The position numbers and the translations under genes are program-made. From a virus, in IMG/VR virus record IMGVR_UViG_3300020473_000097, positions 1 through 29,141 of that record: a stretch of DNA of 29,141 nt. One strand, 5' to 3'. Below, one piece after another: positions 10,701-26,651 of this stretch; position 1 is the first letter of the stretch, and every line of letters begins with the position of its first letter. A model generated the notes under the pieces. That model was not told where the DNA came from, searched no databases, and was given only the letters and a program-made list of their open reading frames with translations.

Positions 10701-13700
10701 TATGTGCAACTGTATCAGTACCGCTTAAAAATGCTCTACAGTTTGCGTAGAACAATTCATTAGATCCTGTAACTCCTACGTAGGCGTACCCTGTTGTTAA
10801 AGGTGATTCAATCAGTCTTGCCACACGTTCAGCACTGATGGATCTACCTGGAGCATTCGGAACTGTGGTTGGTCTGTCTACCCAGAAATAATATTTGGTC
10901 TCAAATATACCCTTTCGATTGTTAAACTTTGATCTTTCAACATACACAGTATTATCATATTTAGGTATCCCTGTTACTCCCAAGGCTGGCCCTGCTGTTG
11001 ATTCACTAATTGTCCTATAGTTTTGCGGTAGTAGGTCTGATTCTACCCATTCATAAACTTTTATTTTTGTGCCTGGAAATAAAGCACCCCATTTATTTTT
11101 TTTGTAGTTGTTATTAAACTGTTCATAATATTGAAACTTTGTGTCTTCCAAATCCCACCAAAGTTCGCCCACTTGTTTTTCACCCCATGATCTTGTTTCT
11201 TGTACTGTAACAGTATCATTACCAATTGTGTAAATTGCTGGATCCCATGGACACTCATATTTTATTTCTTGTGCCGCCGCTCCTGGCAGTTTGCCTTTGG
11301 CAGGATCAATCCAATCAAGAAACTGTACAGTTTTTGATGTTGCTTTGTCAAACAAGTAATTTTTTGTTATTCTGTATGGATTAACAAGTTCAGCAGTCCC
11401 AACACTTCCGTCTACATTGGTGCTACCAGCATAGCCATCTGTCGTCCAACCATACACAAGGTCACCAACTCTAGCATACTCTTTTACTAAACCAGCGTCT
11501 ATAATAGTTGAATCGTTAAGTACTATCTCCAAACCAGGTGCTCCCACAAACACAAAGTCTTCTTGTACAGAAAGTGCGTCACCCCAGCCATCTCCTGTTT
11601 TAACATCCAGTGATGTGATGTCTTGATCTTTCAAATAAAAATCATTATATCTTCTAAACATTTCAACTTTTCCAGTTTCAGAAATAGTTGTTGTAAACCT
11701 TGTGGCTCCTTTGTCAAAAGTTGTTGAAAAATCATATGTGGTTGTACTTCCATCTGATCTTGTGCTGTCATCTCCCCTGAACCTTACATCAAAAGTTGTA
11801 AACACTTTTTGATCACCTTTGTCAGATGCTATGCCGATTTCGGTACCATCTGCATTAGCACTTATAAATGCACCGAAACCACCATTTGCTTTAGGAACTT
11901 CTGCAATCAATGTTTGTTGTAACACATATCTATTGGATTGCACTACCTGTTCTGGTTGTATTGGATCATCATTAATATTGATATACACAGTATTAGAACT
12001 GTCATCTAAAGAATAATATCTTGATGTTGATCCATCGTTTGGATTTAAAATTTCTCCATCAACAGTCATCCAAAAAGTATCTGTCCTTGTAGTTGAATCA
12101 TCTATGTCAGAATAAGATCCTTTGAATGGAAGTGTCCAACTAGTGGTTGTTCCATCTGATAACAGTTTAGTTTGTTCAATTTTGTAAACATAAACTTTCC
12201 CTTGATTTTCAAAAGTGTCTGATGCTTCTACTGATGACACAAATAGATATTCGCCATCTGCTGAAATATCCATGCTGTGTCCGAATCTATTTCCTGCAAT
12301 AGGTTTTGTGCTGAAATCACTTTCACCTTCAGTTAGAATTTGCACACGTTTGAAATCGCTTGTTGTATTTGTACCCCTTGCGTATATAAACACATTTCCT
12401 GCCGACGCTGTTGAATCTCCACGTGGATTGTCTGCTTTCGGGCATGACACAATTAATGTTGTGCCATTTGTGTTTGTTTTTATTATTTCACCAAAGCGTA
12501 ATCCATTTACTGCCTGATCAGGAGTAATTTGTGTTAAGAAATCATACTGTTCTGTACTAAAGTCTTGTTTAAAACTGTACACATATATACAACCACGTTG
12601 ATTATTATGACCTGGTGCACCAACAAATATATAGTTTCCATCATCGGATACTGCCACTCCGGCACCAAACTCTTCATTTGATAATCCTTCTGGCGATGCA
12701 ATAATATCTTTTACTTGATATGAGTTGTCTTGTAATGTGTATATAACAACTGAACCTTGTGCTGTGTTGTCAGCGTTATCAATATCTTTTATTCTTGTCA
12801 CTCCTGAGTCTGGACTTACTAATTGTTCGCCTACAGCAAAATTTGTTGATCCGTTGTTCTTGACATATATGACAGGTTGAATCACTGTAGAGTCTTCTGT
12901 ATTGTACTCTCTGTAGTTCATCACTGTGCCTGTAGCACCCGTATCTGAGCCTGTAACTGTAACTCCAATTGGATAAAAAGTATCTAGTATATAATCTGTG
13001 CTGTCCCCAGCATCACCTGTCAATATAATTTTAACAATATCTTTTGAATTAGGTGCGCCGACTACCATTACTGTTCCATTATCGTTTGTTGCTATTGCTT
13101 TACCAAACTCATCATCGTTGCCAAACACAGCACCCACCTTGTTTGGAATTGGCGTTGTTATTTCGCGTAGAGCCTGTAAAGAACTTTTTTCACCAATTGG
13201 TCGACCAAATATATAAACTTTTCCACCATTTGCATCTCCTGGAGCACCAACCATTACACTTGCCGCGGCAAGATATTTAGAAGGTGAAACAACGACCGAT
13301 CCAAATTTCACATTGCTCCTGTTTCCATTCGGCCTTAAAATAAGTTGTCCGGTTTGATCTGTGTATGGTGATTGTTTCTGCAACACTTCCCACTTGGTCG
13401 GAGTACCTTCCCAATTATTATCAACAAACACACGATCACCATCTTTCCACCCTAAAGGAGGAGTGGCCTGTGCAACTCCTGATGTATCTTTTATTCTAAT
13501 GGAATCAAAAGTAAACAATAAACCTGCTGAACTATCCCCGCCTGCGGGATCAGTTGGCACATATGGTCTATTCCAGTCAACACTGAATCCTTTTTGACTG
13601 AATGTCGAGTCCAGTTCTTCTTTTACTTGATACACACCATCTATTTCTGGTAGCATACCTGATATAAACACATAATCTTTTGACGTAAGTCCATGCGGCA

Positions 13701-16700
13701 CAGTGGTAGTGAATGTTACTGTGGTATCATTTACAACTTTATAATCAGTAATTCGGATATCTGTTTCTGTTACTCTCAATACGTCCCATGAATTATTGTT
13801 TGGCTTATTTGGATTATCCTTAAATGTGCCTACCCAAATTAAAGATCCATTTTTAAAATTTGCAGTATCTAAGTCAATTAATTCTGCAGAGGTAACAACT
13901 GTGGCGTCGACTTGATCTTCACGCACATACCCTGCAACTTCATATTTAAATATCTCTCTCAGTGTTTTTGTTTCTGGATATGTTGAAAACGGAAATCCAA
14001 CATAATCAGTATCAGCACTATACATATCATCAGGACGAACCTGTACAGAATTTGATCCTGTAATGTAATTGGTAGCACCATCTAATAATTCTACAGGCAC
14101 AACTTGCTCTGCACCTTTCGATTCATCCACCACAAATTCAAGCATTTTTTGTATGCGATGACCTCCAAACAACCCAACTCTAAACGCCCATTCTTCAAAT
14201 ATTGAGTAATTTGCTGTGTCTGACACCTGTGCATTTAAAAGTTTTGTTACTGCATCAATAGTGCCTTTTTCTTTAATAAAACCTTGATAAAATTTGTACT
14301 GTGTTGTTTCATCAAGATCAAGATTTTCCAAATATGATCTTGTTTGATACCCAACTAAATGCTGTGCCAATTTTTGTTGTTCAGCATCAAAGTTATCAGA
14401 TTCTAATTCGTAGAAATCTCTAAACTGATCTGCTTTATAATCCAAGTTAGGTAACAGTTGCGATTTTGGTGGTTCTTCTTTGAATACAAATTTAGTGGCA
14501 TCAAAATTTTCATTGCTTGTATGTTTAGTTTTTACTGCATAGTTTTTACCTTGGAACTTTACAACTGTTCCTATGTCATAGTCTTTATACTGCTCCCAAC
14601 TATCTACCCTTGCTTCATCAAAAACAAATCCTGGAGAATACATATCTCCATTCCAATCATCTGTTTTAAATCCGCGTATGAAAAGTCTTGGCTGTCTAAA
14701 ACCAATGGCCGCATCTAGTAGTATGTCATTAAACACAGTTTTGTTATCAAACAATAAAGCATGTTCTTTTTGCACTATGTCTAATGTTATATTGTACAAA
14801 CCAGTTGAGTCTGGATTTGTTTTTACTGTGAAAACTCCATTTTCACGTATGGTGCTTATATCTTTTGTTGCAACTGCTAGACCATTTTGATTCAACACTG
14901 AGTAAGGCCTATATTGGTTTACTAAACTATCAACAACACCAGACGTGTTTTTGTATCTTAGTTCATAGGCTGAAGGACTTAATGTAATTGTTGTACCGGC
15001 TCGCCAATTTTGTTGTGTCCAGAATAAAAATTCTTTTCCTGACAAAAGAAAATCTGCAGGCTCGTTGATGTCTGGCGTCATACTGTCAAATTCAAATCCA
15101 ACTGATTCTAAGTATCTACCATATGAAATAATAAAGTCGAATATGTCTTCCACATTGCGATATCTTTTGCCATATGGCACAATTTCAGGCACAGGATCAA
15201 AGTCTTTAAACAACTGTGCTCTTACACCACCACGCACTGGTAAGGTTGATCCCATGTTTGTCCAGAAATTTATATCAAAATTTGTTGAAGAAGGTATATC
15301 GCGTTTGGCTCTATAGAACACATTGATATATCTTACCACAGCATCTTTGGCATAGAATCCGCCTGATACCCAATCTTGAAAGGCTTCTGTGGCACCCCCA
15401 ACAGTAATAGAAGTTGAATTATTATTTTGTTTGCTAGGTAAAACTTTGAAATATCTTTCTGCTTGATTGTAACCACTAATTTCATATCCTGCAGAACTAT
15501 CATCCATTTCAACTCTTTGCACAATCACAGCAGAATAATTTACGGTTGTGATTGGTGTACTTTTGTTCATGAATATTCTATAGTTTTCTTCAGGAATAAA
15601 AATACTTCTTGCTGTTGATAATGGACTTGTACTTCCTGATATAATTTTTAAATTTGTTTTGTTTGTGAAGCCTGCCATTTTGTACATTAATCTAATTGAT
15701 AAATTATGTACTGGAGTCTGTATGTCATTTACGGTGTTGCCATTGATTGCTCTCACATAGTTTGATATAATATTGATATATCCTGCTGTTCTGTTTACAG
15801 AGCCGTCTCCATTTTCATCTATGTAAGGGAACACTAGTTTACTAGGTTCCATAAATCTGCCAGAGGATTTATACACCAACTGTCCTGCTGAATTAGTAAC
15901 TAATCTGCTAACATCAAAAGTTTCACCGAAAAATTTAGCAGGATACAATAATGCACAAGCCATTGTTTTTGCAAAACAATATTCTGATGATCTTCGCCAA
16001 GCAGTTTCTGCCGGACCATGATCTCCATATTTCCATGAACCACTGCGTTGTGAAATATTTGTACTCGATCCTTTGATAGTTCCTGCATCACGTGGAGCAG
16101 TTAAATTTCCGTTATCATCTACTGGTATGTTGTTTAGCAAACCTGGTCTTCTAAAAGTTAAATTCTTGCTAGATGATCTTGGACCTTTGTGTATGTGCCC
16201 TGTTGCTAAATCATCCCATAGTGTTGTGTTGCCACGTGTGTATGGTGCTGGGCCATATCTGTTTTCCCACCACGTTGGCTTTTCTTTAAATCCTAACATT
16301 TCCCATGGAGTAGTGTGTGGAGTGTCTGTGTCATAGAAATATTTGTATATTCCTCTCCAATGACCAGGTAACTTTTCTCCATCTACACTATTTCCTAATT
16401 GTGAATAGTTCCATGTAAATTGATTCCCATCATCATAATTTGTGTGGCTACTATAATCTACACCATTACGTCCTACCCAGTCATAAAATTCACCATCCAT
16501 TACAAGATTATATTCTTCTCTTGTGTAACTGTCTGCTCCAGTTGCCTTTCTGTAAACACCTGGTTCTTGTGTCAAAGGAATAAAATCATCCCTCATTTGT
16601 ACTTTTAAATTATTATAAATTCTAAGTTCTAATTCCAATAGCAGTTGATCTCTCAAATCTCCAAAAGTTTTTGTGAGTGAACCATCATGTCCTTTTATGA

Positions 16701-19700
16701 CTCTGACCGCTGTGCTGTCTAATGACTGATATGTGTCATCAGCAAAAATTGTTGGCACAGAAGATTGTGCAAGACCTAATTTTGCAGGTGTTGGAGGAAT
16801 GTACGAGCCATTAGTGTTGTTATAATCATGTATGACAAATCTACCACCAATATCAAAATTTTGTGATTCAGGATTAATCATTACAATGCTAGAATTTTTA
16901 GTATCAAAAATGTAATCTCGACCAAGCACTAACTGTCTTTCTTGACCATAGATGTCTGAATAATAAACATACAATGCACGTTTAGATAATGTGCTGGTGT
17001 CAAAAACTGAATTAATTGCGTAAACTTCATTGTCAGGATCAACAATGGTGTAAACTATTTCTGATCTGTCCCTTCCGTATCCAACCATGTCATCATAATA
17101 AAATGGAAATGTTGGGGTTCTGCTTTTGCCCATTTCGACAATAATAGTATCAACATGATCTTTGATTGAACCACTGAACGGTAAATCAACTGCCATTTTC
17201 AAAAATGATTTTTTCCATCTTGCATATTCTGTTCCCACATATCGCATTGCAGTAACAAAATTTGCTTTGCTATCTTTAAGAAAAAATGAAGCAAGTGGCA
17301 TTGAGCCTTCATGTGTCATTATTCTTTCGCCATATGTTTTTGGCACAGGCAGATCTCTCAAATTTCCTGCTCCAGGTTGTATGCCTTCATAGTTAGGATG
17401 AGAATCAGTTATGGATAGCACATGGTCACTTATTTCATGTAACGTGAACAAAGGAACTCTTTGGTTTAATCCATTACGTTCTATATTAAATGGAATTTCA
17501 TATTTTCCGAAACCATTTTTACTTTGGGTTGATTTACATTTTATTGTTATTGTGTCTCCTGCTTTTCTTAGTGCAAAAAATTGTACAAACAAATCACCTC
17601 TTACTGTGCTGTCTAAATCTGATCGTGTAAGGAAATAATCTTTGCCTTCTATTACTCTTCTGCCATTTACAAACACTCTGACAGTTAAATCATTTATAAA
17701 AGCGGCTTTTGTAAAACTTCTAATTTGAAACAATTCTTTTTCATCGCCAACAATTTGTACATCACTGATCCACTGGTCTGTCGTTTTGTAATATTTTTCC
17801 CAACCATTGCCATATGTAAAATCTTCTAATGTTTTGTTTTTCCTGTAGAATGTTGTATCGAAAAATGTAAACAGCGATTTGCCTTGGTCGTCTGCGTACT
17901 GGAAAAATCCGGATGCCAAATTATTATCAAACTGAATGTCTGATTGGGCACCTAAACTTGCGTATGTTATATTTTTCTTATATACAGTATCAAAAGTTCC
18001 GTTGTCTGATTCATTGACAGCAAAAATTGTACTACCTTGGAAGTCACTTGCACTATATGTGTCATTGTCACTGACAACAACGCCGTTGGCATCATACAGT
18101 TCAAACTTAGGTGCCTCATTTATAGCCAAATGTTGTTGTGAATATATCCAATTGGTGCCGTCAAAGTGATATGTCAAACCTTCAAGGTTAAGGCCTTTTT
18201 TTATTAACACACATTGATCTTTCTGCACTACTGATGAATCCTCTGCTTCTACAAGATTTATTTTTTTACTCACTGTGCTGTCTAAAGATGCAAAGGTGAC
18301 GTATTGCACAACCCAAATTTTGTTTCTAACATCTGGATCATTATCAGCAGAAAATACAACCCTGTCACCATCTTTCAAATCTACACCATCAACAAAGGCA
18401 AGAGTTTGACCTTTTACATTAGAAAAAGCATCTGTTTCAGCGATATCAAACAGATCAATTGGATCTTTTGCTACTGCTCCGTGATTGTGTAATTGTAAAT
18501 CTGCATCGAATTCAATAATTGGACGTTTGGCTCTGAATGCTTCATCTAGTTCATACGGCAAAATTGTTGATGTTGAGTCACTGTTATATTTTGCAGTATC
18601 TTTAATAACGTCTCTGTGGAACCATCTGTTTAGTCTTGACCATGCGTTATTGTCTACACTGGATCTATTGATTGTAAAATAATCTTGTTTTCCGGGATAA
18701 AAATCTTGGGCATCCCAATAAAATGTATCAAATTCTTGTGTGCCATTTTCATCCCATGGAGATCCAATTGGAGTTACTAATTCACTGTATGTGTTTACAA
18801 TCGTGTCAACATCGACAAGTCTAATTTTTTTCCCTACACCTTCAACATAATATTGTTTGCCTGTACGATTTACAGGATCGGATGGATCTAAATCTCCGCT
18901 GAAATAAACTTTTAATCCATTTGTAAATTTTACACCATTAGATGATTGATAATATTTTTTATTTACAACTTCTGCAAATACATTTGGTTTCACTACTGTT
19001 TCATCAAGATCTCTTATTATTATTGTGCCATGCATGGCTTGGTGATATTGGCACTGATAGTACAATACTGTTGGGTGTGTTGTTGATCCATCTGTCAATA
19101 ATGGTACTTCAAATTCTACCGTGCCTTGTTCTGCACCGTTATTGTTTACATAACCTCCTTGTACACCATCATCAGTGCCGAGGCTGTTTAATGTTTTAAT
19201 CCAAAATGGATGCCCAGGTGCATTTACTTCAAATCTATATGTGTTGCCTCGGTATAATGTTATGACAGGATTTGTAATACCATCATCATTGAATGTGTAT
19301 CCTCCTCTGGCATTATTGACCACAGAGAAAGTTGATACCCCACCTGGTTGTTGAAGATCAACTAACACAGGAGCCGGACCATTAGGTATCCAATAATATT
19401 CTCTAAAATTAACTAACTTGTCTAGGTCAACAGGTGGAGCAAAAGAGTAAGATTCTCCTTGAAACATTCTGCTGTGATTAATATCATCTGTTGTGTTTTC
19501 TGTATGACCTCCATAAGTTTTTACTTGGTTAATAAGATCCAAGTAATCACAAGAAAATTCAACATTGCCATTCTTATCCACATAAGTTGTTGCAGGTTCC
19601 AATTGATAGTCTTGTCTATCTGCTGTGCTTTCTTTGACATATCTGTCTGTGCTTTTGAAGACCTTACTTGTTTTACTACCAACATATCCATCAACTTTTG

Positions 19701-19815
19701 TAAGTTTTCCAGGTTGTGACAATTGGTCAAGTGTTGAATTTAAAAATCTTCTATTTTTATCTGTTTGAAAGATTTGAGGTAATTGCTCTAATGTTCTGCG
19801 AGTAGTTGTTGCCAT
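4792..19815 (-). CDS. Giant multidomain baseplate-associated structural protein, 5007 aa
   Basis: One uninterrupted frame of 5,007 codons starts at an ATG sharing its A with the gp6 stop; GGAGG lies 12 bases upstream at 19828-19832. Modules in order: a conserved N-terminus (about residues 60-150, including KLVNFREYYWIPNGP); a cupredoxin-like domain (161-271); a long region with WRGIYKYFYDT and TPWEMLGF motifs (about 1090-1250); seven FG-GAP-like repeats (about 2169-2780); a GxGYTxxPTIT motif, a YHYH domain and a second such motif (about 3470-3790); GDGST modules (about 4040-4319 and 4896-4976); three tandem beta modules (about 4384-4706); and an EYSTKDGN/RRGTLGTG motif (about 4792-4869). No signal peptide, membrane segment or protease motif was seen. 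In T4 the gene after gp6 is gp7 (about 1,030 aa), a peripheral wedge protein. A comparable but much larger baseplate component is inferred from position; adhesion is a second possibility. Confidence 0.88.
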   Translation of the reverse strand: MATTTRRTLEQLPQIFQTDKNRRFLNSTLDQLSQPGKLTKVDGYVGSKTSKVFKSTDRYVKESTADRQDYQLEPATTYVDKNGNVEFSCDYLDLINQVKTYGGHTENTTDDINHSRMFQGESYSFAPPVDLDKLVNFREYYWIPNGPAPVLVDLQQPGGVSTFSVVNNARGGYTFNDDGITNPVITLYRGNTYRFEVNAPGHPFWIKTLNSLGTDDGVQGGYVNNNGAEQGTVEFEVPLLTDGSTTHPTVLYYQCQYHQAMHGTIIIRDLDETVVKPNVFAEVVNKKYYQSSNGVKFTNGLKVYFSGDLDPSDPVNRTGKQYYVEGVGKKIRLVDVDTIVNTYSELVTPIGSPWDENGTQEFDTFYWDAQDFYPGKQDYFTINRSSVDNNAWSRLNRWFHRDVIKDTAKYNSDSTSTILPYELDEAFRAKRPIIEFDADLQLHNHGAVAKDPIDLFDIAETDAFSNVKGQTLAFVDGVDLKDGDRVVFSADNDPDVRNKIWVVQYVTFASLDSTVSKKINLVEAEDSSVVQKDQCVLIKKGLNLEGLTYHFDGTNWIYSQQHLAINEAPKFELYDANGVVVSDNDTYSASDFQGSTIFAVNESDNGTFDTVYKKNITYASLGAQSDIQFDNNLASGFFQYADDQGKSLFTFFDTTFYRKNKTLEDFTYGNGWEKYYKTTDQWISDVQIVGDEKELFQIRSFTKAAFINDLTVRVFVNGRRVIEGKDYFLTRSDLDSTVRGDLFVQFFALRKAGDTITIKCKSTQSKNGFGKYEIPFNIERNGLNQRVPLFTLHEISDHVLSITDSHPNYEGIQPGAGNLRDLPVPKTYGERIMTHEGSMPLASFFLKDSKANFVTAMRYVGTEYARWKKSFLKMAVDLPFSGSIKDHVDTIIVEMGKSRTPTFPFYYDDMVGYGRDRSEIVYTIVDPDNEVYAINSVFDTSTLSKRALYVYYSDIYGQERQLVLGRDYIFDTKNSSIVMINPESQNFDIGGRFVIHDYNNTNGSYIPPTPAKLGLAQSSVPTIFADDTYQSLDSTAVRVIKGHDGSLTKTFGDLRDQLLLELELRIYNNLKVQMRDDFIPLTQEPGVYRKATGADSYTREEYNLVMDGEFYDWVGRNGVDYSSHTNYDDGNQFTWNYSQLGNSVDGEKLPGHWRGIYKYFYDTDTPHTTPWEMLGFKEKPTWWENRYGPAPYTRGNTTLWDDLATGHIHKGPRSSSKNLTFRRPGLLNNIPVDDNGNLTAPRDAGTIKGSSTNISQRSGSWKYGDHGPAETAWRRSSEYCFAKTMACALLYPAKFFGETFDVSRLVTNSAGQLVYKSSGRFMEPSKLVFPYIDENGDGSVNRTAGYINIISNYVRAINGNTVNDIQTPVHNLSIRLMYKMAGFTNKTNLKIISGSTSPLSTARSIFIPEENYRIFMNKSTPITTVNYSAVIVQRVEMDDSSAGYEISGYNQAERYFKVLPSKQNNNSTSITVGGATEAFQDWVSGGFYAKDAVVRYINVFYRAKRDIPSSTNFDINFWTNMGSTLPVRGGVRAQLFKDFDPVPEIVPYGKRYRNVEDIFDFIISYGRYLESVGFEFDSMTPDINEPADFLLSGKEFLFWTQQNWRAGTTITLSPSAYELRYKNTSGVVDSLVNQYRPYSVLNQNGLAVATKDISTIRENGVFTVKTNPDSTGLYNITLDIVQKEHALLFDNKTVFNDILLDAAIGFRQPRLFIRGFKTDDWNGDMYSPGFVFDEARVDSWEQYKDYDIGTVVKFQGKNYAVKTKHTSNENFDATKFVFKEEPPKSQLLPNLDYKADQFRDFYELESDNFDAEQQKLAQHLVGYQTRSYLENLDLDETTQYKFYQGFIKEKGTIDAVTKLLNAQVSDTANYSIFEEWAFRVGLFGGHRIQKMLEFVVDESKGAEQVVPVELLDGATNYITGSNSVQVRPDDMYSADTDYVGFPFSTYPETKTLREIFKYEVAGYVREDQVDATVVTSAELIDLDTANFKNGSLIWVGTFKDNPNKPNNNSWDVLRVTETDIRITDYKVVNDTTVTFTTTVPHGLTSKDYVFISGMLPEIDGVYQVKEELDSTFSQKGFSVDWNRPYVPTDPAGGDSSAGLLFTFDSIRIKDTSGVAQATPPLGWKDGDRVFVDNNWEGTPTKWEVLQKQSPYTDQTGQLILRPNGNRSNVKFGSVVVSPSKYLAAASVMVGAPGDANGGKVYIFGRPIGEKSSLQALREITTPIPNKVGAVFGNDDEFGKAIATNDNGTVMVVGAPNSKDIVKIILTGDAGDSTDYILDTFYPIGVTVTGSDTGATGTVMNYREYNTEDSTVIQPVIYVKNNGSTNFAVGEQLVSPDSGVTRIKDIDNADNTAQGSVVIYTLQDNSYQVKDIIASPEGLSNEEFGAGVAVSDDGNYIFVGAPGHNNQRGCIYVYSFKQDFSTEQYDFLTQITPDQAVNGLRFGEIIKTNTNGTTLIVSCPKADNPRGDSTASAGNVFIYARGTNTTSDFKRVQILTEGESDFSTKPIAGNRFGHSMDISADGEYLFVSSVEASDTFENQGKVYVYKIEQTKLLSDGTTTSWTLPFKGSYSDIDDSTTRTDTFWMTVDGEILNPNDGSTSRYYSLDDSSNTVYININDDPIQPEQVVQSNRYVLQQTLIAEVPKANGGFGAFISANADGTEIGIASDKGDQKVFTTFDVRFRGDDSTRSDGSTTTYDFSTTFDKGATRFTTTISETGKVEMFRRYNDFYLKDQDITSLDVKTGDGWGDALSVQEDFVFVGAPGLEIVLNDSTIIDAGLVKEYARVGDLVYGWTTDGYAGSTNVDGSVGTAELVNPYRITKNYLFDKATSKTVQFLDWIDPAKGKLPGAAAQEIKYECPWDPAIYTIGNDTVTVQETRSWGEKQVGELWWDLEDTKFQYYEQFNNNYKKNKWGALFPGTKIKVYEWVESDLLPQNYRTISESTAGPALGVTGIPKYDNTVYVERSKFNNRKGIFETKYYFWVDRPTTVPNAPGRSISAERVARLIESPLTTGYAYVGVTGSNELFYANCRAFLSGTDTVAHIEYKSTDADVDEHAEWQLMAEGDPNSLPPDSLTEKLIDSLIGYDKYAQVVPDRDISESRKYGIETKPERQSMFVNRAGATEAFFIEVNKILAKYKFAQGYDLSKFKRFDPFPSETLKEFNEKVSSFAELSYINTDTVGDKYKVLVTKDETANSFWSLYEWQGFGEDSSGQALGWKRVKTQSFDTRIYWDFKNWYAEGYSDETAPSYTVSTVDKVPTVPAIPGDTVKITRALNGKFELRLKTETGFDTVGLEDGTITINETAYAYSEGAIGYDSGTYDASNYDQEPTVEIRNLVEGVVKDLLVEELGSEWNQLWFTMVRRILSEQKYVDWVLRTGFLKINNTYSTLNTDFEYKNDPIDYVLNYINEVKPLHSQVRDYTVNYSQLETMGMDLTDFDIPPYYDIVQGKIISPRFDTYPAKFSENPYKIFADNYHRYVNEITISDGGAGYTEAPTITFSGGTQNIPNVYFNSELVTNFYSVYHFWVKSDGLPAHAIGENLELVSARAKKHNYQFKIKITPEVRTNKTEAIGYVGVATNGVPFHSAKGNEINTTIDSTTMYKDEWLDRKSAGFIDSSNARMNADENRKYYYLADPGLLYTKSASTHSALIGWAFDGHPIYGAYAYSSALDATSSIKLMKSSYRLKSGTRADGSAYNGTFTDDYEYVDGLGDLDQYNGRTCVTPEFTAGTYAYFVTLDDDLTPEYPYIVGPQFYGVPQSQTYTEQNRYGAFIDVDEVKLDTASQATATAIVSAGEVSRVIVNNTGSGYTQTPTITVSGGGTGVTRTARLYPKLINGKIREFDTTLAFDRIKGTNDLTTKNIVDWEINTAFTTDQNVRFDNRIYKVTSNFTSSNTFDDTNLERWHAADRIFAYYTPGVGMPGLMGDGSSSPESYSQLMSGLEYGGVQVRSITFDTGSNYDIGSGFDAGKYDAGVISDDTDTYADYDTKLEGGKFSTDIGTRPEEIIVQGDEFAGNEFSTYAPEEVVPGITFDTVDIQVYSKPADGGPLVDINTYLGDGSTTTFALSLLPQSDEAIFVYKNNHLLDNIHDSTATHFTIDYPNKTITFTTAPAVNDYIMIQTFSTGGANVINQTTATGDGSTTVFNVAGSISRVGRAYVTVNGAKTTVTISDAGDSSSVNLTFSSAPVANSVIQILLTDTTTKTFNEVKTETFLFDGSTENYVLQSPPSSAPPFHSAAIVTRNNLRLVPPDTAYFTGDGSTRIFDIPTDPAERQNIVQGDIEAHINGIRQQVNADWTYDASTFQVTFSGTPVEGDAIAITTKSGHDYTIDSTSLNLNVDQGGFTAGDVIKVTTFSNHDEMHIETQTFSGVKNTAAFYGANNFAGEVLNVGTGGKTIDSFNTTSKKAVQYQISAVGSDGNTQIETLTVLSDGTNVFLSSLGRVFTDTTKTIEYSASISGSEVSITGTTTSGTADVRFWQTHLDESTVAASGINEAVIAVDMNDSTATVIDSTTNNTNQATYFYYAKGDVDGHESGYVTFHFDGTNANTTHYGILNTTATQFMTFTGAMSGSTAQLKANTDDPTTLLRLYRIALSSTTSTFQDEGTKFFAPQTVDGSGVTLDSIPQGQTTDKYQSAIYYYSAIIGGGGDRETGILTLAANGLTANLNQFGILSSNEPTSASLLTFSASVSGGNAVLSCAETSSGTASITLYRVGYDQALQIEQQESNTYTMSNIISNTNYLWVTYNGERLIQGVDFSVEDDSKTINIPTPRFITDGSSVDRVVVTAISTDKLAPATGFRIFKDILDRYHYKRIAKANITELSSPLLISDTTISVRDGSVLATPSTTYPGVVFIDKERIEYSTKDGNTLSNIRRGTLGTGAKANYPSGTEVVDASTNQTIPNSGDAITTDTYTGDGSTTFFDMTTQPAEADEVTVFVGGIRLRRLNDDSSANYTIGGDSARGITFTSAPASGRTIKIQHKTGRIWYDQGTDPASATNAKGMQNATTVPAKFLLEGESRLPK
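4890..7700 (-). repeat. Dispersed GDGST beta modules in the giant protein C-terminus
   Basis: Modules start with GDGSTTTF or a close variant (GDGSTTVF, FDGSTENY, GDGSTRIF, GDGSTTFF). Most continue with a strand carrying V/I-x-V-N/G-G-x-R/K/H and an xTFTSAP-like turn, ending in a hydrophobic strand. They lie near 7700-7485, 7450-7255, 7215-6860 (two starts) and 5130-4890. The same module is frequent in phage tail-fibre proteins. It wraps around the three tandem modules described separately. Confidence 0.6.
5700..6665 (-). repeat. Three tandem beta modules in the giant protein (residues about 4384-4706)
   Basis: Three consecutive units of about 80-95 residues share one layout: an aromatic strand (VQYQISAV, ATYFYYAKG, SAIYYYSAI), a Glu-Thr/Ser-Gly turn, a strand ending near DGTN or LAANG, a YGIL/FGIL-type strand, an F/Y-x-A/G-x-[MVI]-SG turn and a closing strand (VRFWQTHL, LRLYRIAL, ITLYRVGY). 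Identity between units is low, so this is old duplication visible only at protein level. Units lie near 6665-6385, 6310-6075 and 5990-5700. Confidence 0.6.
8566..9228 (-). other. YHYH domain in the giant protein (about residues 3530-3750)
   Basis: The hallmarks of the YHYH family are present in order: GVATNGVPFHS, then LIGWAFDGHPIYGAYAYS about 70 residues later, and a closing NGRTCVTPEFTAGTYAYFVT with PYIVGPQFYG. The family occurs in bacterial secreted proteins and marine phage structural proteins; its function is not established. Confidence 0.75.
11475..13310 (-). repeat. Seven FG-GAP-like repeats in the giant protein (beta-propeller)
   Basis: Seven degenerate units share the layout FG-x-A-x(2-4)-D/N-x-D/N-G-x(3)-V/F-V-G-A-P followed by G-x-V-Y-V/I-Y. 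Approximate unit positions on the minus strand are 13310-13200, 13125-13045, 12680-12570, 12505-12375, 12290-12180, 11890-11795 and 11590-11475. The clearest unit reads FGAGVAVSDDGNYIFVGAPG. Seven is the blade number of integrin-alpha-type propellers. Units 4-6 have lost GAP but keep FG and the Asp/Asn-Gly turn; insertions separate several units. Confidence 0.75.
19003..19335 (-). other. Cupredoxin-like domain in the giant protein (residues 161-271)
   Basis: The segment shows the order of a blue-copper domain: a beta strand ending in NTYRFEV, a first His in NAPGHPFW (H202), more strands, then LYYQCQYHQAMHGTI. The last part gives C255, H258 and M261, the C-x2-H-x2-M spacing known from amicyanin. 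Together with H202 this is the complete type 1 ligand set. The residues are seen directly; the fold and copper binding are inferred. Confidence 0.75.
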
Positions 19816-22800
19816 TAATATCCGGAACCTCCACTACCTGACGATGTTGATGTTGTCGTTGTTGTAGTGGTGCCGGATGTTGTTGTTGCAGTAGACACTG
19901 ACGTTCCTGTGGCAGAAGTTACTGCTTCTGTGCCTGAGGCTCCAGTTGTAGATGTTACAACTGCTCCTGTGGCTTGTAAGTTTGTTGCAGTAAGTTTGTC
20001 TATTATTTCAACATTATCAACAGTTGCACCACTGATAAAAATTTCATCAGCATTGGCTCTTATTTCAAACAAAGAACCAAAGAAGTTATCTGCACTCTTA
20101 GGCACAATAACCACTGATGCTATGTTTGGAGCCAACACACCGTGAATATAAGTGGCAAGTTCTGTAAAATAGAACGTGTCACCAAAGTTCCAGTTATCTA
20201 AGATGAAATAATCATTAATAGCCGCTATGACTGATGATTTTATTTCGTTGTCTGTCAACACTAGATCAGGATTTTTGACAACTTTGAATGTTGCTTGTAA
20301 ATCATCTTCTGCTTTGGAACCGAATAATAATCTATATTTGATTGGAACAAATATAATGTCGTCTGATATGGCACGTTTTGTGGAAAGTTCTTTCAAATAT
20401 GCAGTGGTGAGTGTCTCAACTGTTGGTGCCCCTGGTTCTGCACCTTCTTGTCCGCCATCTATCCACTGTCTATAATCTGTGTCATATGCTTTTGTTAAAG
20501 TATAAATTTCTTGCAAGTTACTCACACTAGGATCTATTCTTCTATCCTTTGGTGCTCCATGTTTGTATTGATAAATCAAGTCTGCCCTGCCCAGTCTTGC
20601 AATATAATCAGTGTTTGTTTCTAATAATCCAGTTGTAGAATTATATTGTTTTACTGCATCTTCAGTTTCATGGAAAAAATAAAACAGTTGTCCATCTTCA
20701 AAATCACTTGGTGAACTTATTTCAGATTCACGTTCACGCACAACAAAATTGTCTGTGGTGTAATCAAACTGATTGAATCCATTGCCTATATTTTTTTTGA
20801 AGAAAATATATTTTTCTGTTGGATTTCGATTTGGATTCACAACTGATGTGAATGAATCAGGATCATCTAGTGCGCCATCATCATCTGTGTCTAAAAATCC
20901 TATTTTCATTTTTCTAGTGTCGTTGTAACCATCTAAATCTACAGCATTTCCTACTATTTCAAAATTGTAATCCTGTGTAAGTGTAGTTGAATCTGGCCCA
21001 GAATTGGATTTAAGAATTTTGATAAGATCTTTTACTGTTCTTCCTGTTTGTGAATCATAAATTTTTGTTGTTTCATCAAAATAAAATCTATTTTTTTCTT
21101 TGCTTTCAAATAGATATTCAAGATTTCTGTATGTTACTGTGTATGTTTCTCCATCGGAAGTAAATTTAAAGAACCATGAAGCATCTTTATTAGCACTTGT
21201 AGTGTCCCCAGCAAAAGAAGTGGCAAAAATATTACTTGATGATAAATTTACACTTGTAATAGTTTGATATGTGCCTCCACCTGTCACATCTTGATCATAT
21301 CGCAGTCCAAAGTTTAAATGTTGTTCCACTAATCCTATTATTTCTGTTTCTTGTGATGTGGTCAAAGCAGTCTGAATAGGATATACTATTTCAGTCAACT
21401 GTGCATTGTTAGGAACAATATCTGCAAGAGTGATTGGACCAGTACCATCTAACAAATTTCCTACACCCTGATTACTACCATCACCAACTACCTTTGTAAC
21501 TTTGGTCCATAAAACTTCTGTACCGTCTGTAGATGAACTAGTTAGTGTGCCATCTGGTTTAAAAAATTGCCCTGATGGTGGTATAAATTTAAGAAGTGAT
21601 CCAACTATTACATATTTCAAATTTGTTGTGCTTGATTCACCGGTGGACAATGGACCTTCTTCAAAGAAGTACCCAGTTGATGTGTTTGTACCTTTTGTTG
21701 TTAGGTTCCATTTTCTACTTGTACCACCTGACTTTCTTGCAAATTCACTTAGATAAAAATTATACAAACTCTTTCCTGCCAGTAGCGGATTCAACGTGTT
21801 TCTTAAAAAAGATAGTATTTCACTAGAACTTGTAAATGTAAATGTAGTGGTTGGATTGGATTTTTGCAAGTAAATCAAACCATCATCTAAAACTAATGAT
21901 GTTGCTGAAAAGGCACCAGTAACATCTTTCAAATCATAATATCTGCTAGTACCACTTATGGCTCTGTTGACAGATCTAACCTTAGCAATGCTTTGATTAA
22001 TTGTTAGTGGTACAACTTGATAATCCTCTCCAGTAATCATTCTATCACTGGTGTAGTAACTTTGTGGAGCCAAAACTTTAATGGATGCATTTGTTTCTGC
22101 CGTAGTTGCATTTGATATAGTTTGTTGTAGACTTGCACTAAAACTTAAAGTATGATTTTGCCCATCTGCGTTTACATAAGGAATATCTACAGTAATGTCT
22201 TGCATGTCTCCCGGCACTATTTGATATTGAAGTCCATTACTTGTTCTGTAGTAGGATCTGAAGTTGCCAATTGGAATATTACCAAATGTACCATCAGCAA
22301 AAGTCAAATCAACTTGATCATTGGCTTTTGTCACTGCGGTATACACATTTCTATTGTTCACTGCCACTGAATTGTAAATCACATTGTTGCCTGCGATGCT
22401 AGGAATTTTGGTCCATTGTGTGTCCAACAAACCTGAATCTGTCAAACTGTACAACCATACATCATTGTCATTTATGTTATCATATGGCAAATTAACAATT
22501 TGGTTAGATGTAGATTCTTGAATATTGAAATCGACACTACCTAAACTACCTTGTTTGAAATACAAAAAGAATCCAGTGTTTGCAGAACCAAAACCAGCAC
22601 CATCATTTTTGTAAATCATTGAAAAATTGTTTGATGGAATCGGTGATTCTTCATATATAAAATCTTCTCCTAAGAATGTTGCTGGCACAATTTCAAATGG
22701 CATAGTGATTCCATTTACGTTTCTTGTAAATGTGAACAATGGCACATCATTGTTAGAAGTGGCTAGTTTGTACTGTTCTGTGGCTATGTTACCAATAGTT

Positions 22801-23330
22801 CCTGACAAAATTGGTCTACCAAATTTTTGTCCTGAAGCCAAAGCGGCGTTGAATATTACTGTGAACTGCTCTAAAAAGTTTGAATTTGCGGCATCGTTCC
22901 ACACAATGGCTGTGTTTGCTAAATCAATGCCTCCTGAATCTGTTACATTTTCTGTTGTGGCAATTGATGTGACTTTTAAAAAGCCAGTGGCATTTTGATT
23001 TCTTTTAGGAGCATAACTTAACAGTCTAGCAAGTCGCAAAATAGACTCACGTCTTGATGCTGTATCAATAAAATTTTCTCTTGCATTAAGATCAACTCTG
23101 AAAGAAATTGCTTGTGCCGTGTATGCTATCAAGTCAATCAGTGCTATGTATTCTGAAGATTCAATATAATCATTAAAAGTTTCTGGATAATTTTCCTTCA
23201 AATAAGCAATCATAGTTCTTCTTATGGTGTCAAAATCATAAGAAGTGAAATCAGCCTTTTTGAAAGTTTGATAAATTTTGGTCCAATCCTGGTTGACCAA
23301 TAAACTATTTTGACGTTCTGTTGAACTCAT
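19815..23330 (-). CDS. 6: Baseplate wedge protein gp6
   Basis: gp6 dimers link neighbouring wedges into the continuous inner ring of the T4-type baseplate. The N-terminal 110 residues carry the strongly conserved marine gp6 text, including DFTSYDFDTIRRTM, SSEYIALIDLIAYTAQ and the ARENF and RRESILRLARLLSY segments. A central part (VPLTINQSIAKVRSVNRA) and a C-terminal gpJ-like region also fit. At 1,171 aa it is much longer than T4 gp6 (about 660 aa). The last 50 residues form a Thr/Ser/Gly tail (STATTTSGTTTTTTTS) ending in GGSGY. It follows the only exact late-promoter match in the window; AAAGG at 23337-23341 lies 6 bases before the ATG. Its TAA overlaps the start of the giant gene, so the two are probably coupled in amount. 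Confidence 0.94.
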   Translation of the reverse strand: MSSTERQNSLLVNQDWTKIYQTFKKADFTSYDFDTIRRTMIAYLKENYPETFNDYIESSEYIALIDLIAYTAQAISFRVDLNARENFIDTASRRESILRLARLLSYAPKRNQNATGFLKVTSIATTENVTDSGGIDLANTAIVWNDAANSNFLEQFTVIFNAALASGQKFGRPILSGTIGNIATEQYKLATSNNDVPLFTFTRNVNGITMPFEIVPATFLGEDFIYEESPIPSNNFSMIYKNDGAGFGSANTGFFLYFKQGSLGSVDFNIQESTSNQIVNLPYDNINDNDVWLYSLTDSGLLDTQWTKIPSIAGNNVIYNSVAVNNRNVYTAVTKANDQVDLTFADGTFGNIPIGNFRSYYRTSNGLQYQIVPGDMQDITVDIPYVNADGQNHTLSFSASLQQTISNATTAETNASIKVLAPQSYYTSDRMITGEDYQVVPLTINQSIAKVRSVNRAISGTSRYYDLKDVTGAFSATSLVLDDGLIYLQKSNPTTTFTFTSSSEILSFLRNTLNPLLAGKSLYNFYLSEFARKSGGTSRKWNLTTKGTNTSTGYFFEEGPLSTGESSTTNLKYVIVGSLLKFIPPSGQFFKPDGTLTSSSTDGTEVLWTKVTKVVGDGSNQGVGNLLDGTGPITLADIVPNNAQLTEIVYPIQTALTTSQETEIIGLVEQHLNFGLRYDQDVTGGGTYQTITSVNLSSSNIFATSFAGDTTSANKDASWFFKFTSDGETYTVTYRNLEYLFESKEKNRFYFDETTKIYDSQTGRTVKDLIKILKSNSGPDSTTLTQDYNFEIVGNAVDLDGYNDTRKMKIGFLDTDDDGALDDPDSFTSVVNPNRNPTEKYIFFKKNIGNGFNQFDYTTDNFVVRERESEISSPSDFEDGQLFYFFHETEDAVKQYNSTTGLLETNTDYIARLGRADLIYQYKHGAPKDRRIDPSVSNLQEIYTLTKAYDTDYRQWIDGGQEGAEPGAPTVETLTTAYLKELSTKRAISDDIIFVPIKYRLLFGSKAEDDLQATFKVVKNPDLVLTDNEIKSSVIAAINDYFILDNWNFGDTFYFTELATYIHGVLAPNIASVVIVPKSADNFFGSLFEIRANADEIFISGATVDNVEIIDKLTATNLQATGAVVTSTTGASGTEAVTSATGTSVSTATTTSGTTTTTTTSTSSGSGGSGY

Positions 23331-23387: not shown

Positions 23388-23855
23388 TTAGTAGCCTGCT
23401 GATGTGGTTGGACTCATGCTACTTGACACACTCAAAGACTGTGTTTCATCAAAATTAAGTGCCAATTGCTCCTGTACATTAAGTTGTCTGTACAAAACAC
23501 TCATTGTAATTTGCAAACCATGTTCAAAATAATCTACATCAACACTTTCAAGTTCAACTCTAGGATCTTGATTGATAATATTTTGCACATCTGCAACAAT
23601 GGCATCGCTGGTTGCCTGTGTGTTTGGCTCAAATATAGAATCCCATATGATTGTGCCAACTTCCGGATTTTCAAGTTTTTCACCTTTGCGTATGTTAAAG
23701 TGATTCAATAAGTCTGCTCTTACAAGTTCATAATCATACAGAGCAACATCTTGAAAATCACGACCAACTGTTGAAAATCCTTTGAATAATTGCGTCCTTT
23801 TTTCATTTGTACTTTGTAAAGGCCGTCTTTGATTGGAATATGTTACTTTTGCCAT
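23388..23855 (-). CDS. 25: Baseplate wedge / sheath initiator gp25
   Basis: This is a 155-aa member of the GPW/gp25 family, which sits on the inner baseplate and starts sheath polymerisation. The family signature is present: GTIIWDSIFEPN near the middle and then QDPRVELESVDVDY, matching the conserved FEP and PRV-L elements. The ATG at 23855 (MAKVTYSNQRRP) is preferred over an in-frame ATG at 23909. The latter would add 18 unrelated residues and overlap the PAAR gene, while the chosen start lies 8 bases after the PAAR stop with AGGG 11 bases upstream. The C-terminus is Ser/Thr-rich and ends in TSAGY, similar in style to the GGSGY end of gp6. Confidence 0.94.
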   Translation of the reverse strand: MAKVTYSNQRRPLQSTNEKRTQLFKGFSTVGRDFQDVALYDYELVRADLLNHFNIRKGEKLENPEVGTIIWDSIFEPNTQATSDAIVADVQNIINQDPRVELESVDVDYFEHGLQITMSVLYRQLNVQEQLALNFDETQSLSVSSSMSPTTSAGY

Positions 23856-23863
23856 ACTAATAT

Positions 23864-24151
23864 TTACCCTGCAAATACTTTGCTTGATCCAGCCGCAACT
23901 GATGTACAACCTGATATACCATCACCTATTCGGCCACAACCTTTTGTATCAATAAAAACTTTGCTCGACCCTGTGGCAATAGGGGCCGCGTGTGAAGGAC
24001 AAGGGATTGGCGGTAACAAGTGTGAAGTGTTATTGTCGCCTTGACGAGATATACCTATACCGTCAGCAAACACCTTACTAGAACCTGCCGCCCTAGTCAT
24101 GCCTGAGCAATGTGCAACATCGGCATCGCCTATTCTTGTGACTGCTGGCAT
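23864..24151 (-). CDS. PAAR-domain spike-tip protein (gp5.4-like)
   Basis: The 95-aa product is a full PAAR domain, the small metal-stabilised cone that caps the gp5/VgrG spike and is first to touch the host. Three RxGD turns are each followed five residues after the Asp by a likely metal ligand: R6-IGD with H14, R36-QGD with H44, and R74-IGD with C82. That matches the two-His-one-Cys site expected of the family. GSSKVF is repeated three times (residues 23-28, 61-66, 88-93), revealing the internal pseudo-symmetry. The start overlaps the stop of the 64-aa gene by one base and has a GGGGAG-type ribosome-binding site. The spike gene lies two genes upstream, as expected for its partner. No C-terminal effector extension is present. 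Confidence 0.95.
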   Translation of the reverse strand: MPAVTRIGDADVAHCSGMTRAAGSSKVFADGIGISRQGDNNTSHLLPPIPCPSHAAPIATGSSKVFIDTKGCGRIGDGISGCTSVAAGSSKVFAG

Positions 24152-24345
24152 TATTTTTCTCTCCCCATTAATTCTTGTAATTTGTCATTGAACGTTGCCA
24201 TAAATTCGTGATCTTCATCTGAGTGTGGATCAGGTGGAAAGTCAGGCTTAAAACTAATGACGTGATCAAAAGTTGCTGGTATATCTTCATAATTTGTGTA
24301 TGTGACGACTTCACGGTTTACCATAATTTTAAATTCACCTTGCAT
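24151..24345 (-). CDS. Small acidic protein between spike and PAAR genes, 64 aa
   Basis: It begins MQGEFKIMVNREVVTYTNYE, followed by IPATFDHVISFKPDFPPDPHS and an acidic helix ending MGREK. It overlaps the spike gene stop and the PAAR start by one base each, so all three are likely translated together. AGGGAG lies about 10 bases before the ATG. I know of small genes in this position in marine T4-like phages but no function. A role in spike or tip assembly is inferred from position alone. The many His/Asp/Glu residues (PHSDEDHE) might bind metal, which is a guess. Confidence 0.82.
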   Translation of the reverse strand: MQGEFKIMVNREVVTYTNYEDIPATFDHVISFKPDFPPDPHSDEDHEFMATFNDKLQELMGREK

Positions 24346-26651
24346 TACTTGTCTGCTCCCTGACCAAATTTACTTTTGCCCAAACCTTTCGATTGGAAAT
24401 TTTTCCAAGATGGTTTTTTAACTCCACTTACTGCTCCAATGCTTGGTTTGGAAAATCCAGGTTTCACATTGCCTGTACCTACATCAGCAGTATCTCCGCC
24501 GGCGGTCGCACCGCCACCTCCACTGTATGGTGCTGTCTTACCACCTGTGCTTGATTCATTGCCTTCTCTGTCTGTAGACTCTCTACTAAATCTTGCTCGG
24601 TCTGAGTTTTCATGCTGTTGATATGGTTCATGAGTAGGCACACGTTTAGACACTGACACAATTATTAAATTGCCACCACTGTCAACTCTTGCCTGTACAG
24701 CACCGTCTGCCTTTTGATATGGATAATCAATCGCTTTGCCTGTTTCCGGATCGTTGGGCAATGCATCTGGCAGAATGTGTGTTGTAAGACCGTCAATTGG
24801 ATCAGCATTTTTGGCAGGAGTAACTAATGACAATGCTGTTGAATCTCCATCTGACTCATCTTTGTACACAGAATTTTTTGGAAACACAATATCGTTTGTG
24901 CCATCCAAGAATGAATCTGAAGCCACAGCACCTCCTGCCACTGTAAGCACACTTGATGCAGTATTACTGCCACCTTGTAAATCAATAATACCACCTACAT
25001 CAACATTGTAGTCTGTTCCTGCAAAGGCATTATAATCTGTTGCCGCCACGACATTTACATCTCTACCACCAAACATTGAAAGGTCTTGATCTGCTCTTAT
25101 ACCCACTTGATGTGCTAATAATGATATTGTTTTGTTGTCGGTCTTTTTTGCTTCAATGTTAATGTCATCATCTGCATACAATTCAAATTTGGATTGTGTT
25201 TCAACATTAATTTTGTCTGCAGAAAATATCTGCGTATCGCCACGTGCTATAATATTAAGATCATCTAATGCTTCTATGTTGACATTACTTGTTAAAGTAT
25301 CACCTGTGTTTGCTTCATTTCCTGCAAGTATGTCTATGTCACCAGTTGCTGTAATTTTAATTCCTTTACGTTTAATAATTTCTTTGTTACCATCTTCTCT
25401 CGAATCACCTGTACCAACCTGATTGGTTCTAATATGTATTTCTCCTCGGTCAGCATTAATTTTTGTGTTGTTGAAAGAAAGTATTTCAACATTACCACTG
25501 CTTGAATTATCTGGCTGATCCACAAGGAATTTGTCTTTCCTTTGTACAGCACTTTCAATACGCACTCTTCCTGTGATGTTGTCTTTGCCACTTACTATTC
25601 CAGTTGCTTTGATGTTTACATTTCTGCCTGCTTCTAAATTAAAATCTCTGTCTGCAAAGAAATTCATGTCAACAGCAGATCTAACACTGATACTGTCTGA
25701 TCCAAATATATCAATTTTTCCGTCCCGTGATAATTCAATCCATGCTTTTCCAGTTGAGTTTGATATGTACACAATGTCTTCTGTGTCATGTAGTAAAATT
25801 TGGTTTCCACTTCTTGTTCTTAGTTTAATCATTTCATTAGTGGGTTTGTCACCGGTTCCTACTCCGCCAGGCACCACTTCACCATCATCCATTATGAATT
25901 GATGTCCTCCAAGTCTTGAATTCTGTCCGTCACCGTGTGGATTGGTTGCTTGACTTCCCTTTTTTGCTACTTTTTGGCCATCTTGTGCTAATGGACCTGG
26001 TGTGGCTATTCCAAATGCTTGACTGGGTGACTCTCGCCTTGCAGATGATGTGGTAGTGCCTCTTACGTTGTCTGCTAACAGACCTGATATCACCAGTGAA
26101 TTTGAAAAAACTTTGTTTGTTGGTTTTGTTGTGCCAGTGTAATTTGGATTGTTTGGATTACTCTTGTTTATTTCGCCTGTTGGTAGTAGTGTGGCACCTT
26201 CAAATTCATCACCACCCGTCACATTGCCAACATCAGAAAATCCACCACCAGGTACCATATTGTTAATTTGTTGATCTGGAATCACTGCGAACCAATATGC
26301 ATTATTCATATTGCCATCTGCAAAAGTGACTAATACTCTGGTGTCAATATCCACAGTTGGAAACCACATACCATATGATTTTTGTGTATCTTTAAAGTCT
26401 TCTGAGTCATTATTATATCGCAAAGGTGTTTGTCCCCAAAAAGGTGACGCATATCTGCATGATAGGTAATTGTTGATGTTGTCCTGATCAGGTCCTGACA
26501 ATGAAGGAATGTACACTAAAATATTTCCCATGCGTTGTGGATCGTTAATTTCTTTTACTATACCAATGTATGGACCTGCATTGTTTGGTGCATCCATGTC
26601 TTTTTTCAAATTTGCATTTGGTCCTAATCTTGATCTCGAATCAATCGGCAT
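24345..26651 (-). CDS. 5: Baseplate central spike protein gp5-like, no lysozyme domain
   Basis: gp5 trimers form the central needle under the hub. Residues about 27-125 match the gp5 N-terminal OB-fold (GPYIGIVKEINDPQRMG, later YGMWFPTVDIDTRVLVTFAD and YWFAVIP). From about residue 285 the C-terminal part follows: LRTRSGNQILLHDTEDIVYI, then WIELSRDGKIDIFG and many short alternating strands rich in Asp/Asn (for instance FADRDFNLEAGRNVNI), the triple beta-helix pattern shared with VgrG. The last 120 residues are Gly/Ser/Lys-rich and look disordered. T4 gp5 has a T4-lysozyme domain between these parts; here the linker (about 130-285) is Gly/Asn/Thr-rich without a lysozyme-like Glu-x8-Asp-x5-Thr triad. 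AGGAAG at 26659-26664 lies 7 bases before the ATG. Confidence 0.92.
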   Translation of the reverse strand: MPIDSRSRLGPNANLKKDMDAPNNAGPYIGIVKEINDPQRMGNILVYIPSLSGPDQDNINNYLSCRYASPFWGQTPLRYNNDSEDFKDTQKSYGMWFPTVDIDTRVLVTFADGNMNNAYWFAVIPDQQINNMVPGGGFSDVGNVTGGDEFEGATLLPTGEINKSNPNNPNYTGTTKPTNKVFSNSLVISGLLADNVRGTTTSSARRESPSQAFGIATPGPLAQDGQKVAKKGSQATNPHGDGQNSRLGGHQFIMDDGEVVPGGVGTGDKPTNEMIKLRTRSGNQILLHDTEDIVYISNSTGKAWIELSRDGKIDIFGSDSISVRSAVDMNFFADRDFNLEAGRNVNIKATGIVSGKDNITGRVRIESAVQRKDKFLVDQPDNSSSGNVEILSFNNTKINADRGEIHIRTNQVGTGDSREDGNKEIIKRKGIKITATGDIDILAGNEANTGDTLTSNVNIEALDDLNIIARGDTQIFSADKINVETQSKFELYADDDINIEAKKTDNKTISLLAHQVGIRADQDLSMFGGRDVNVVAATDYNAFAGTDYNVDVGGIIDLQGGSNTASSVLTVAGGAVASDSFLDGTNDIVFPKNSVYKDESDGDSTALSLVTPAKNADPIDGLTTHILPDALPNDPETGKAIDYPYQKADGAVQARVDSGGNLIIVSVSKRVPTHEPYQQHENSDRARFSRESTDREGNESSTGGKTAPYSGGGGATAGGDTADVGTGNVKPGFSKPSIGAVSGVKKPSWKNFQSKGLGKSKFGQGADK

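Follow-up and report, generated by a model that had tools for sequence, protein, structure and literature searches.

The DNA analysed here (the window) is a linear virus fragment of 29 kb (29,141 nucleotides). On its minus strand, genes for a gp5-like hub, a PAAR spike, gp25, a gp6-like wedge protein and a giant protein of 5007 amino acids follow each other in this order and form a contractile-tail baseplate cluster; all genes and domains of this cluster for which coordinates are given below lie on that strand. The gp5-like baseplate hub protein (24345-26651) was recognised by phrog_13211, baseplate hub and tail lysozyme (E 6e-40), the PAAR spike-tip protein (23864-24151) by the Pfam profile PAAR_motif (E 8e-7), the gp25-like wedge protein (23388-23909) by the Pfam profile GPW_gp25 (E 4e-8) and the gp6-like wedge protein (19815-23330) by phrog_10646 (E 2e-300). 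The PAAR gene overlaps the gp25-like gene when the latter is listed from its TTG start, and the true start of gp25 is probably located further in. The giant protein is encoded by a single open frame (4792-19815), to which the gp6, gp25, PAAR and gp5-like genes adjoin. It was matched by phrog_10938 (virion structural protein) with E-values of 1e-276 and 7e-56, and this match together with the neighbouring gp6 gene identifies it as a gp7/VrlC-like wedge protein. Orthologues are present in RaK2, PA5oct, Atu_ph07, Phosso and further jumbo myophages, and in the four named phages the gene order beside gp6 is the same.

Two stretches of the giant protein are conserved among phages and border a slot near its N-terminus. 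The N-terminal core, residues 1-149 (19369-19815), forms the upstream edge of the slot and was found in 87 phage records, 84 of which cover at least 80% of the query, while the core downstream of the slot, residues 276-700 (17716-18990), was found in 84 phage records and 80 IMG/VR loci. The gp6 of the window likewise matches 84-87 phage records. Further along the giant protein, a CBM_5_12 carbohydrate-binding module (residues 1740-1769, 14509-14598; Pfam E 3.8e-6, above the cut-off), four FG-GAP repeats (the best at residues 2371-2413, 12577-12705; Pfam E 2e-10) and a YHYH domain (residues 3547-3733, 8617-9177; PF14240, E 5e-41) provide a possible adhesion context. Elsewhere in the window, positions 2-847 and 1942-4026 encode structural-type proteins with an identical N-terminus (MAYTINKTDGT...), and one gene has apparently arisen from the other by duplication of a fibre or decoration gene. 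Between them, at 1437-1937, lies a gene for a 166-residue protein with an HxD...H pattern (PKHRDTW ... STPHEV) that resembles 2-oxoglutarate/Fe(II) oxygenases and has no Pfam match.

The slot of the window protein holds a domain with a predicted cupredoxin fold. Its family profile delimits the domain to residues 162-267 (19015-19332, E 3e-35), so that the location given in the initial annotation (19003-19335) was right and its exact ends were slightly too wide. An AlphaFold2 model, built with 43 related domains as input, is all-beta with eight strands (pLDDT 87.8, pTM 0.82). When it was compared to the PDB with Foldseek, 208 matches with E-values up to 1e-3 were obtained, and the best 50 of these are cupredoxins or multi-domain proteins made of cupredoxin domains, including rusticyanin, laccases, copper nitrite reductases and pseudoazurins. 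Structure prediction and Foldseek thus agree on the Greek-key beta sandwich that had been proposed, with moderate TM-scores to solved cupredoxins (0.40-0.58 by query length). In a search of viral structure models the domain matched, among others, tail proteins of cyanophages and, with TM-scores of 0.62-0.69 by query length, small 'beta-sandwich' proteins that stand alone in Pithovirus LCPAC302/304 and Marseillevirus LCMAC201/202.

At the sequence level, the window domain alone had no match in Pfam, NCBIfam or PDB searches, and it matched neither the Pfam family Copper-bind (PF00127, gathering cut-off 21.2 bits) nor the amicyanin family TIGR02657 (NCBIfam cut-off 110.2 bits). Since it passes no family threshold by itself, the link to cupredoxins runs through its relatives. 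Single family members match Copper-bind (6e-4) and amicyanin (5e-4 for the best relative), and three bacterial members (L090, L093 and L095) share their genomic sites with Copper-bind matches of 24-32 bits, above the cut-off (L202, L205 and L206). Comparison of the family with bacterial plastocyanin-like proteins by hhalign gave an E-value of 8e-7, and in this alignment the Cys and the second His each meet their counterpart. Searching the PDB with the family profile returned azurin, plastocyanin, laccase and nitrite reductase with weak E-values (from 0.0016). The C-x2-H-x2-M-x-G end of the profile aligns with azurin, plastocyanin and copper nitrite reductase, and over the Cys-His-Met loop the azurin and copper nitrite reductase alignments are in register, which supports the earlier reading of this loop as a cupredoxin site. 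By this convergence of modelled structure and sequence we regard the assignment of the cupredoxin fold as firm.

The four residues that had been proposed as copper ligands are present in the 5007-residue frame with the order and spacing claimed for them. They are H202 within GHPF (19210-19212), C255 at the thiolate position (19051-19053), H258 as the second His (19042-19044) and M261 at the axial position (19033-19035), and among family members outside the giant proteins these positions are His in 98%, Cys in 94%, His in 96% and Met in 97%, respectively. The window copy thereby has the ligand order of the cupredoxin superfamily, His ... Cys-x(2-4)-His-x(2-5)-Met. Its C-x2-H-x2-M spacing was correctly described as that of an amicyanin-type loop, as the title of PDB entry 2vmj contains the identically spaced CTPHPFM. 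In 2000 shuffles of the giant protein, which contains 12 Cys, 57 His and 50 Met, this motif, preceded by a His at a distance of 30-80 residues, was expected 0.0015 times per protein, and 0.0085 times when any cupredoxin-like spacing was allowed. No other such motif occurs among the window proteins, and no significant match of the family profile to a second cupredoxin copy was found elsewhere in them. C255 is the only Cys of the giant protein between residues 90 and 534 and has no disulfide partner inside the domain, so that a disulfide role was rejected.

Outside the giant proteins the domain is widespread. By tblastn it was found in 319 phage records, almost all of cyanophages, often at the C-terminal end of gp9-type fibre connectors, under names that include baseplate wedge tail fiber connector and tail fiber, and it occurs further at 58 IMG/VR loci and 32 bacterial or archaeal genome loci. 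The C-terminus of phrog_677 (positions 302-410 of 412) matches the window domain with an E-value of 8e-18, and GHPF and YYxCxxHxxM are both included in this match. A full ligand set is present in 104 of the 118 distinct copies of this wider family (25/28 from annotated phage records, 38/39 from bacterial or archaeal genomes and 41/51 from IMG/VR contigs). In the genome scan the search pattern was selective for the first His and not for the Cys, the second His or the Met, so the conservation of the latter three is independent evidence. Of the eight most conserved columns of the family, four are the ligand positions. Moreover, exactly one Cys is present in 97/106 copies with a full ligand set and none in 49 of the 52 ligand-less giant-protein copies, a distribution that suits a copper thiolate site. 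The initial annotation had stressed that structural phage proteins are not known as copper proteins; the window protein is not an isolated case, as the module recurs in many tail proteins of cyanophages, and copper binding stays putative throughout.

Several further arrangements of the module were observed. Seven alphaproteobacterial loci (L067, L069, L071, L077, L080, L083 and L084, from OCS116, PS1 clade and Rhodobiaceae) carry a divergent and a canonical copy in tandem, both with full ligands. In cyanomyophages (L062, L187, L191 and L194), a large protein encoded just downstream of gp9 contains a second, divergent domain with the pattern H-P-x-x-F-S-T ... Y-x-C-x-x-H-x-x-M, possibly a further module of the cupredoxin type. 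In Synechococcus phage RB11-B (L185), a tail fiber repeat protein has a ligand-less copy (YYQASNVAGMGG), indicating that the site was also lost outside the giant protein.

A different picture emerged at the orthologous slot. Relatives of the giant protein were collected via the region downstream of the domain, so that the domain itself was not selected for, and nearly all of them carry it in the same place. Only one of their 53 distinct copies (L001/L099) has the full ligand set, and this is the closest relative of the window, with 82-88% identity. One ligand-less group reads GNPFSIKT...YYQSESDINLGG and similar, and in a larger group the terminal loop is missing as well. Ligand-less copies are still recognisable as members of the family (hhalign E 2e-31), and an AlphaFold2 model of such a group (pLDDT 78) matches mainly cupredoxins. 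Related uncultured phages therefore keep the fold at the slot without the copper site. The ligands, expected to be invariant among homologues, are strongly conserved in the wider module family and mostly missing at the orthologous slot, where 52 of 53 sets are incomplete. Free variation of His, Cys and Met, which had been named as an argument against the site, is thus seen in part, in giant-protein relatives that mostly lack ligands though the domain is kept.

In other lineages the slot is occupied differently. Unlike the window, the giants of RaK2, PA5oct, Atu_ph07 and Phosso (phrog_10938) have no cupredoxin there: PA5oct, RaK2 and the uncultured relatives L172/L173 lack any domain at the slot, and in Atu_ph07 and Phosso (L179/L180) a different stretch of about 75 residues (YVGDG...) lies between residues ~150 and ~245. 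This stretch resembles repeats near the C-terminus of the window giant protein (GDGSTT...). The slot is thus variable between phage lineages, being empty or filled by a different small beta domain or a cupredoxin domain, and within the baseplate protein the latter is an inserted, exchangeable module.

We also compared the histories of the flanks and of the domain. In the tree of the flanking regions, the giants that bear the domain form one supported clade with the window and L099 as its deepest branch, and the grouping of the two ligand-less sets is weaker (95/75). A domain tree of 132 rows placed the window without support, and a smaller domain tree, from which the ligand columns were removed, grouped it with one ligand-less clade (93/89); in this smaller tree a single origin of all giant-protein copies was not rejected (p 0.38). 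A single insertion of a copper-type domain followed by loss of the site in sister lineages is the simplest history and the one that we favour, short of proof; alternatively, the domain of the window lineage may have been replaced independently. Between the window and L099, dN is 0.079 and dS 1.75 at 87% identity, and all four ligands are intact in both, so the ligands of the window lineage have been kept intact under purifying selection. Where the Cys had been lost, most independent comparisons showed a change of the two His in the same direction and none showed the opposite, with too few pairs for the sign test to be significant.

The window domain shares with plastocyanin, azurin and amicyanin (PF00127) a beta sandwich, a His followed by C-x2-H-x2-M-x-G near the C-terminus and a Tyr two residues before the Cys. 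These cupredoxins are stand-alone secreted electron carriers, whereas the window domain is an internal module of a 5007-residue virion protein, and the first-ligand segment GHPF[WY]IK is particular to the module family. A phage counterpart is the C-terminal domain of the gp9-type 'baseplate wedge tail fiber connector' of cyanophages (phrog_677), which has the same four ligands; there the domain caps a small connector, while in the window it is inserted near the N-terminus of a giant wedge protein. The At5g54830-like domain (PF25489), described from a plant multidomain protein, is matched weakly by 17 of the 43 aligned family members (best 4e-6). Two inspected matches span most of its model and score below the cut-off, and the window domain does not match it. 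A metal site in a phage tail protein is known from the iron-binding HxH tail fibres of T4 gp37 and alterophage R22Y (PMC11705849). Those fibres differ in fold and ligands from the window domain, as they bind iron through His-only sites along a trimeric needle.

Taken together, we propose that a cupredoxin module was inserted after residue ~150 of the gp7/VrlC-like wedge protein of an uncultured jumbo-type myophage. H202, C255, H258 and M261 would bind one copper ion in type 1 geometry, and the ion would lock the sandwich at its loop end, thereby stabilising an exposed decoration domain of the baseplate, which may make protein-protein or host-surface contacts. A slot that may be empty, filled by another domain or occupied by a cupredoxin, either ligand-bearing or ligand-less, suggests an exposed decoration on a conserved core, and the neighbouring domains hint at host binding by the domain. 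In sister lineages the equivalent domain would work metal-free. Because 52/53 copies from giant-protein relatives have incomplete ligands, copper is not needed at the slot in general. The window-lineage domain probably binds copper and can probably do its job at the slot without it; copper is thus probably an optional stabiliser and not the core job of the domain. Type 1 copper sites hold copper very tightly, which makes it conceivable that virions take it up from seawater after lysis. As a whole, we give this account a little better than an even chance of being correct.

Its most serious competitor is a metal-free scaffold, in which the fold alone matters for adhesion or packing, the window ligands are a remnant or hold adventitious zinc or another metal, and the virion is free of copper. 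It would explain why ligand-less copies that retain the fold dominate the giant-protein slot and why, in the flank tree, the window and L099 are a small branch beside large ligand-less groups. A pure scaffold would, however, have no need for four positions that are among the most conserved of the wider family, nor for ligands that remained intact in the window and L099 at a dS of 1.75 and 87% identity; the concerted shifts of the two His after loss of the Cys, too few for significance, point the same way. We therefore consider the scaffold improbable, though well worth keeping in mind. That the motif arose by chance in an unrelated beta domain has practically no probability: His, Cys and Met are only a few letters, but the low expectation under shuffling (0.0015 per protein), the conservation of the motif across hundreds of relatives and the structural matches to cupredoxins refute it.

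Two further explanations give the copper an active role. Since type 1 copper sites are generally redox-active, the copper or a free Cys could sense the redox state or catalyse oxidation at the cell surface. No electron-transfer partner, second copper domain or conserved redox neighbour was found, and relatives keep the fold without the ligands. With no redox partner in sight electron transfer is unlikely, and we judge a redox switch very improbable. Alternatively, virions could take copper from the water and use the exposed site to recognise a copper-binding or copper-uptake protein on the host surface, as a copper counterpart of the 'Ferrojan horse' idea, which concerns iron in phage tails. 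Marine phages have family members in their tail fibres and gp9-type fibre connectors, which is consistent with this, as is the proposal that the iron-binding HxH fibres of T4 and marine phages exploit siderophore receptors (PMC11705849). However, many relatives use the slot without ligands and the module is also found in bacterial proteins, and we think such a contact site quite unlikely. The optional stabiliser remains our preferred reading. Extended to marine phages at large, it would mean that many of their virions carry type 1 copper centres in baseplates and tail-fibre connectors, in which seawater copper stabilises or aims exposed binding domains, and that jumbo phages later lost the copper at one site and kept the domain; this wider proposal is tentative and, in our estimate, somewhat more probably wrong than right.

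The cupredoxin fold itself is well known, and its setting in a virion baseplate or fibre connector appears to be undescribed in the literature searched, in which no relevant paper on cupredoxins in phage baseplates, tails, cyanophages or virions was found (preprints and most subscription journals lay outside the search). The same search yielded no paper on a lead to Knickkopf/DOMON plastocyanin. A copper-dependent function in the giant protein can be claimed only with reservation, since the ligands have been lost at the orthologous site. At the same time, orthologues with a full site, a lost site, another domain or an empty slot form a series in which the role of the metal can be tested directly, and if the copper reading for marine phages is true, the loss of the site in jumbo phages is a natural metal-free comparison. 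The cupredoxin fold also provides a functional lead for the gp9-type connector of cyanophages, whose C-terminal domain has until now been annotated by position only. Should the domain bind copper, phage virions would count among the copper proteins, and very abundant marine phages would carry several sites in each baseplate, which would be relevant to the copper chemistry of seawater and to how the exposed domains of phage tails are kept folded.
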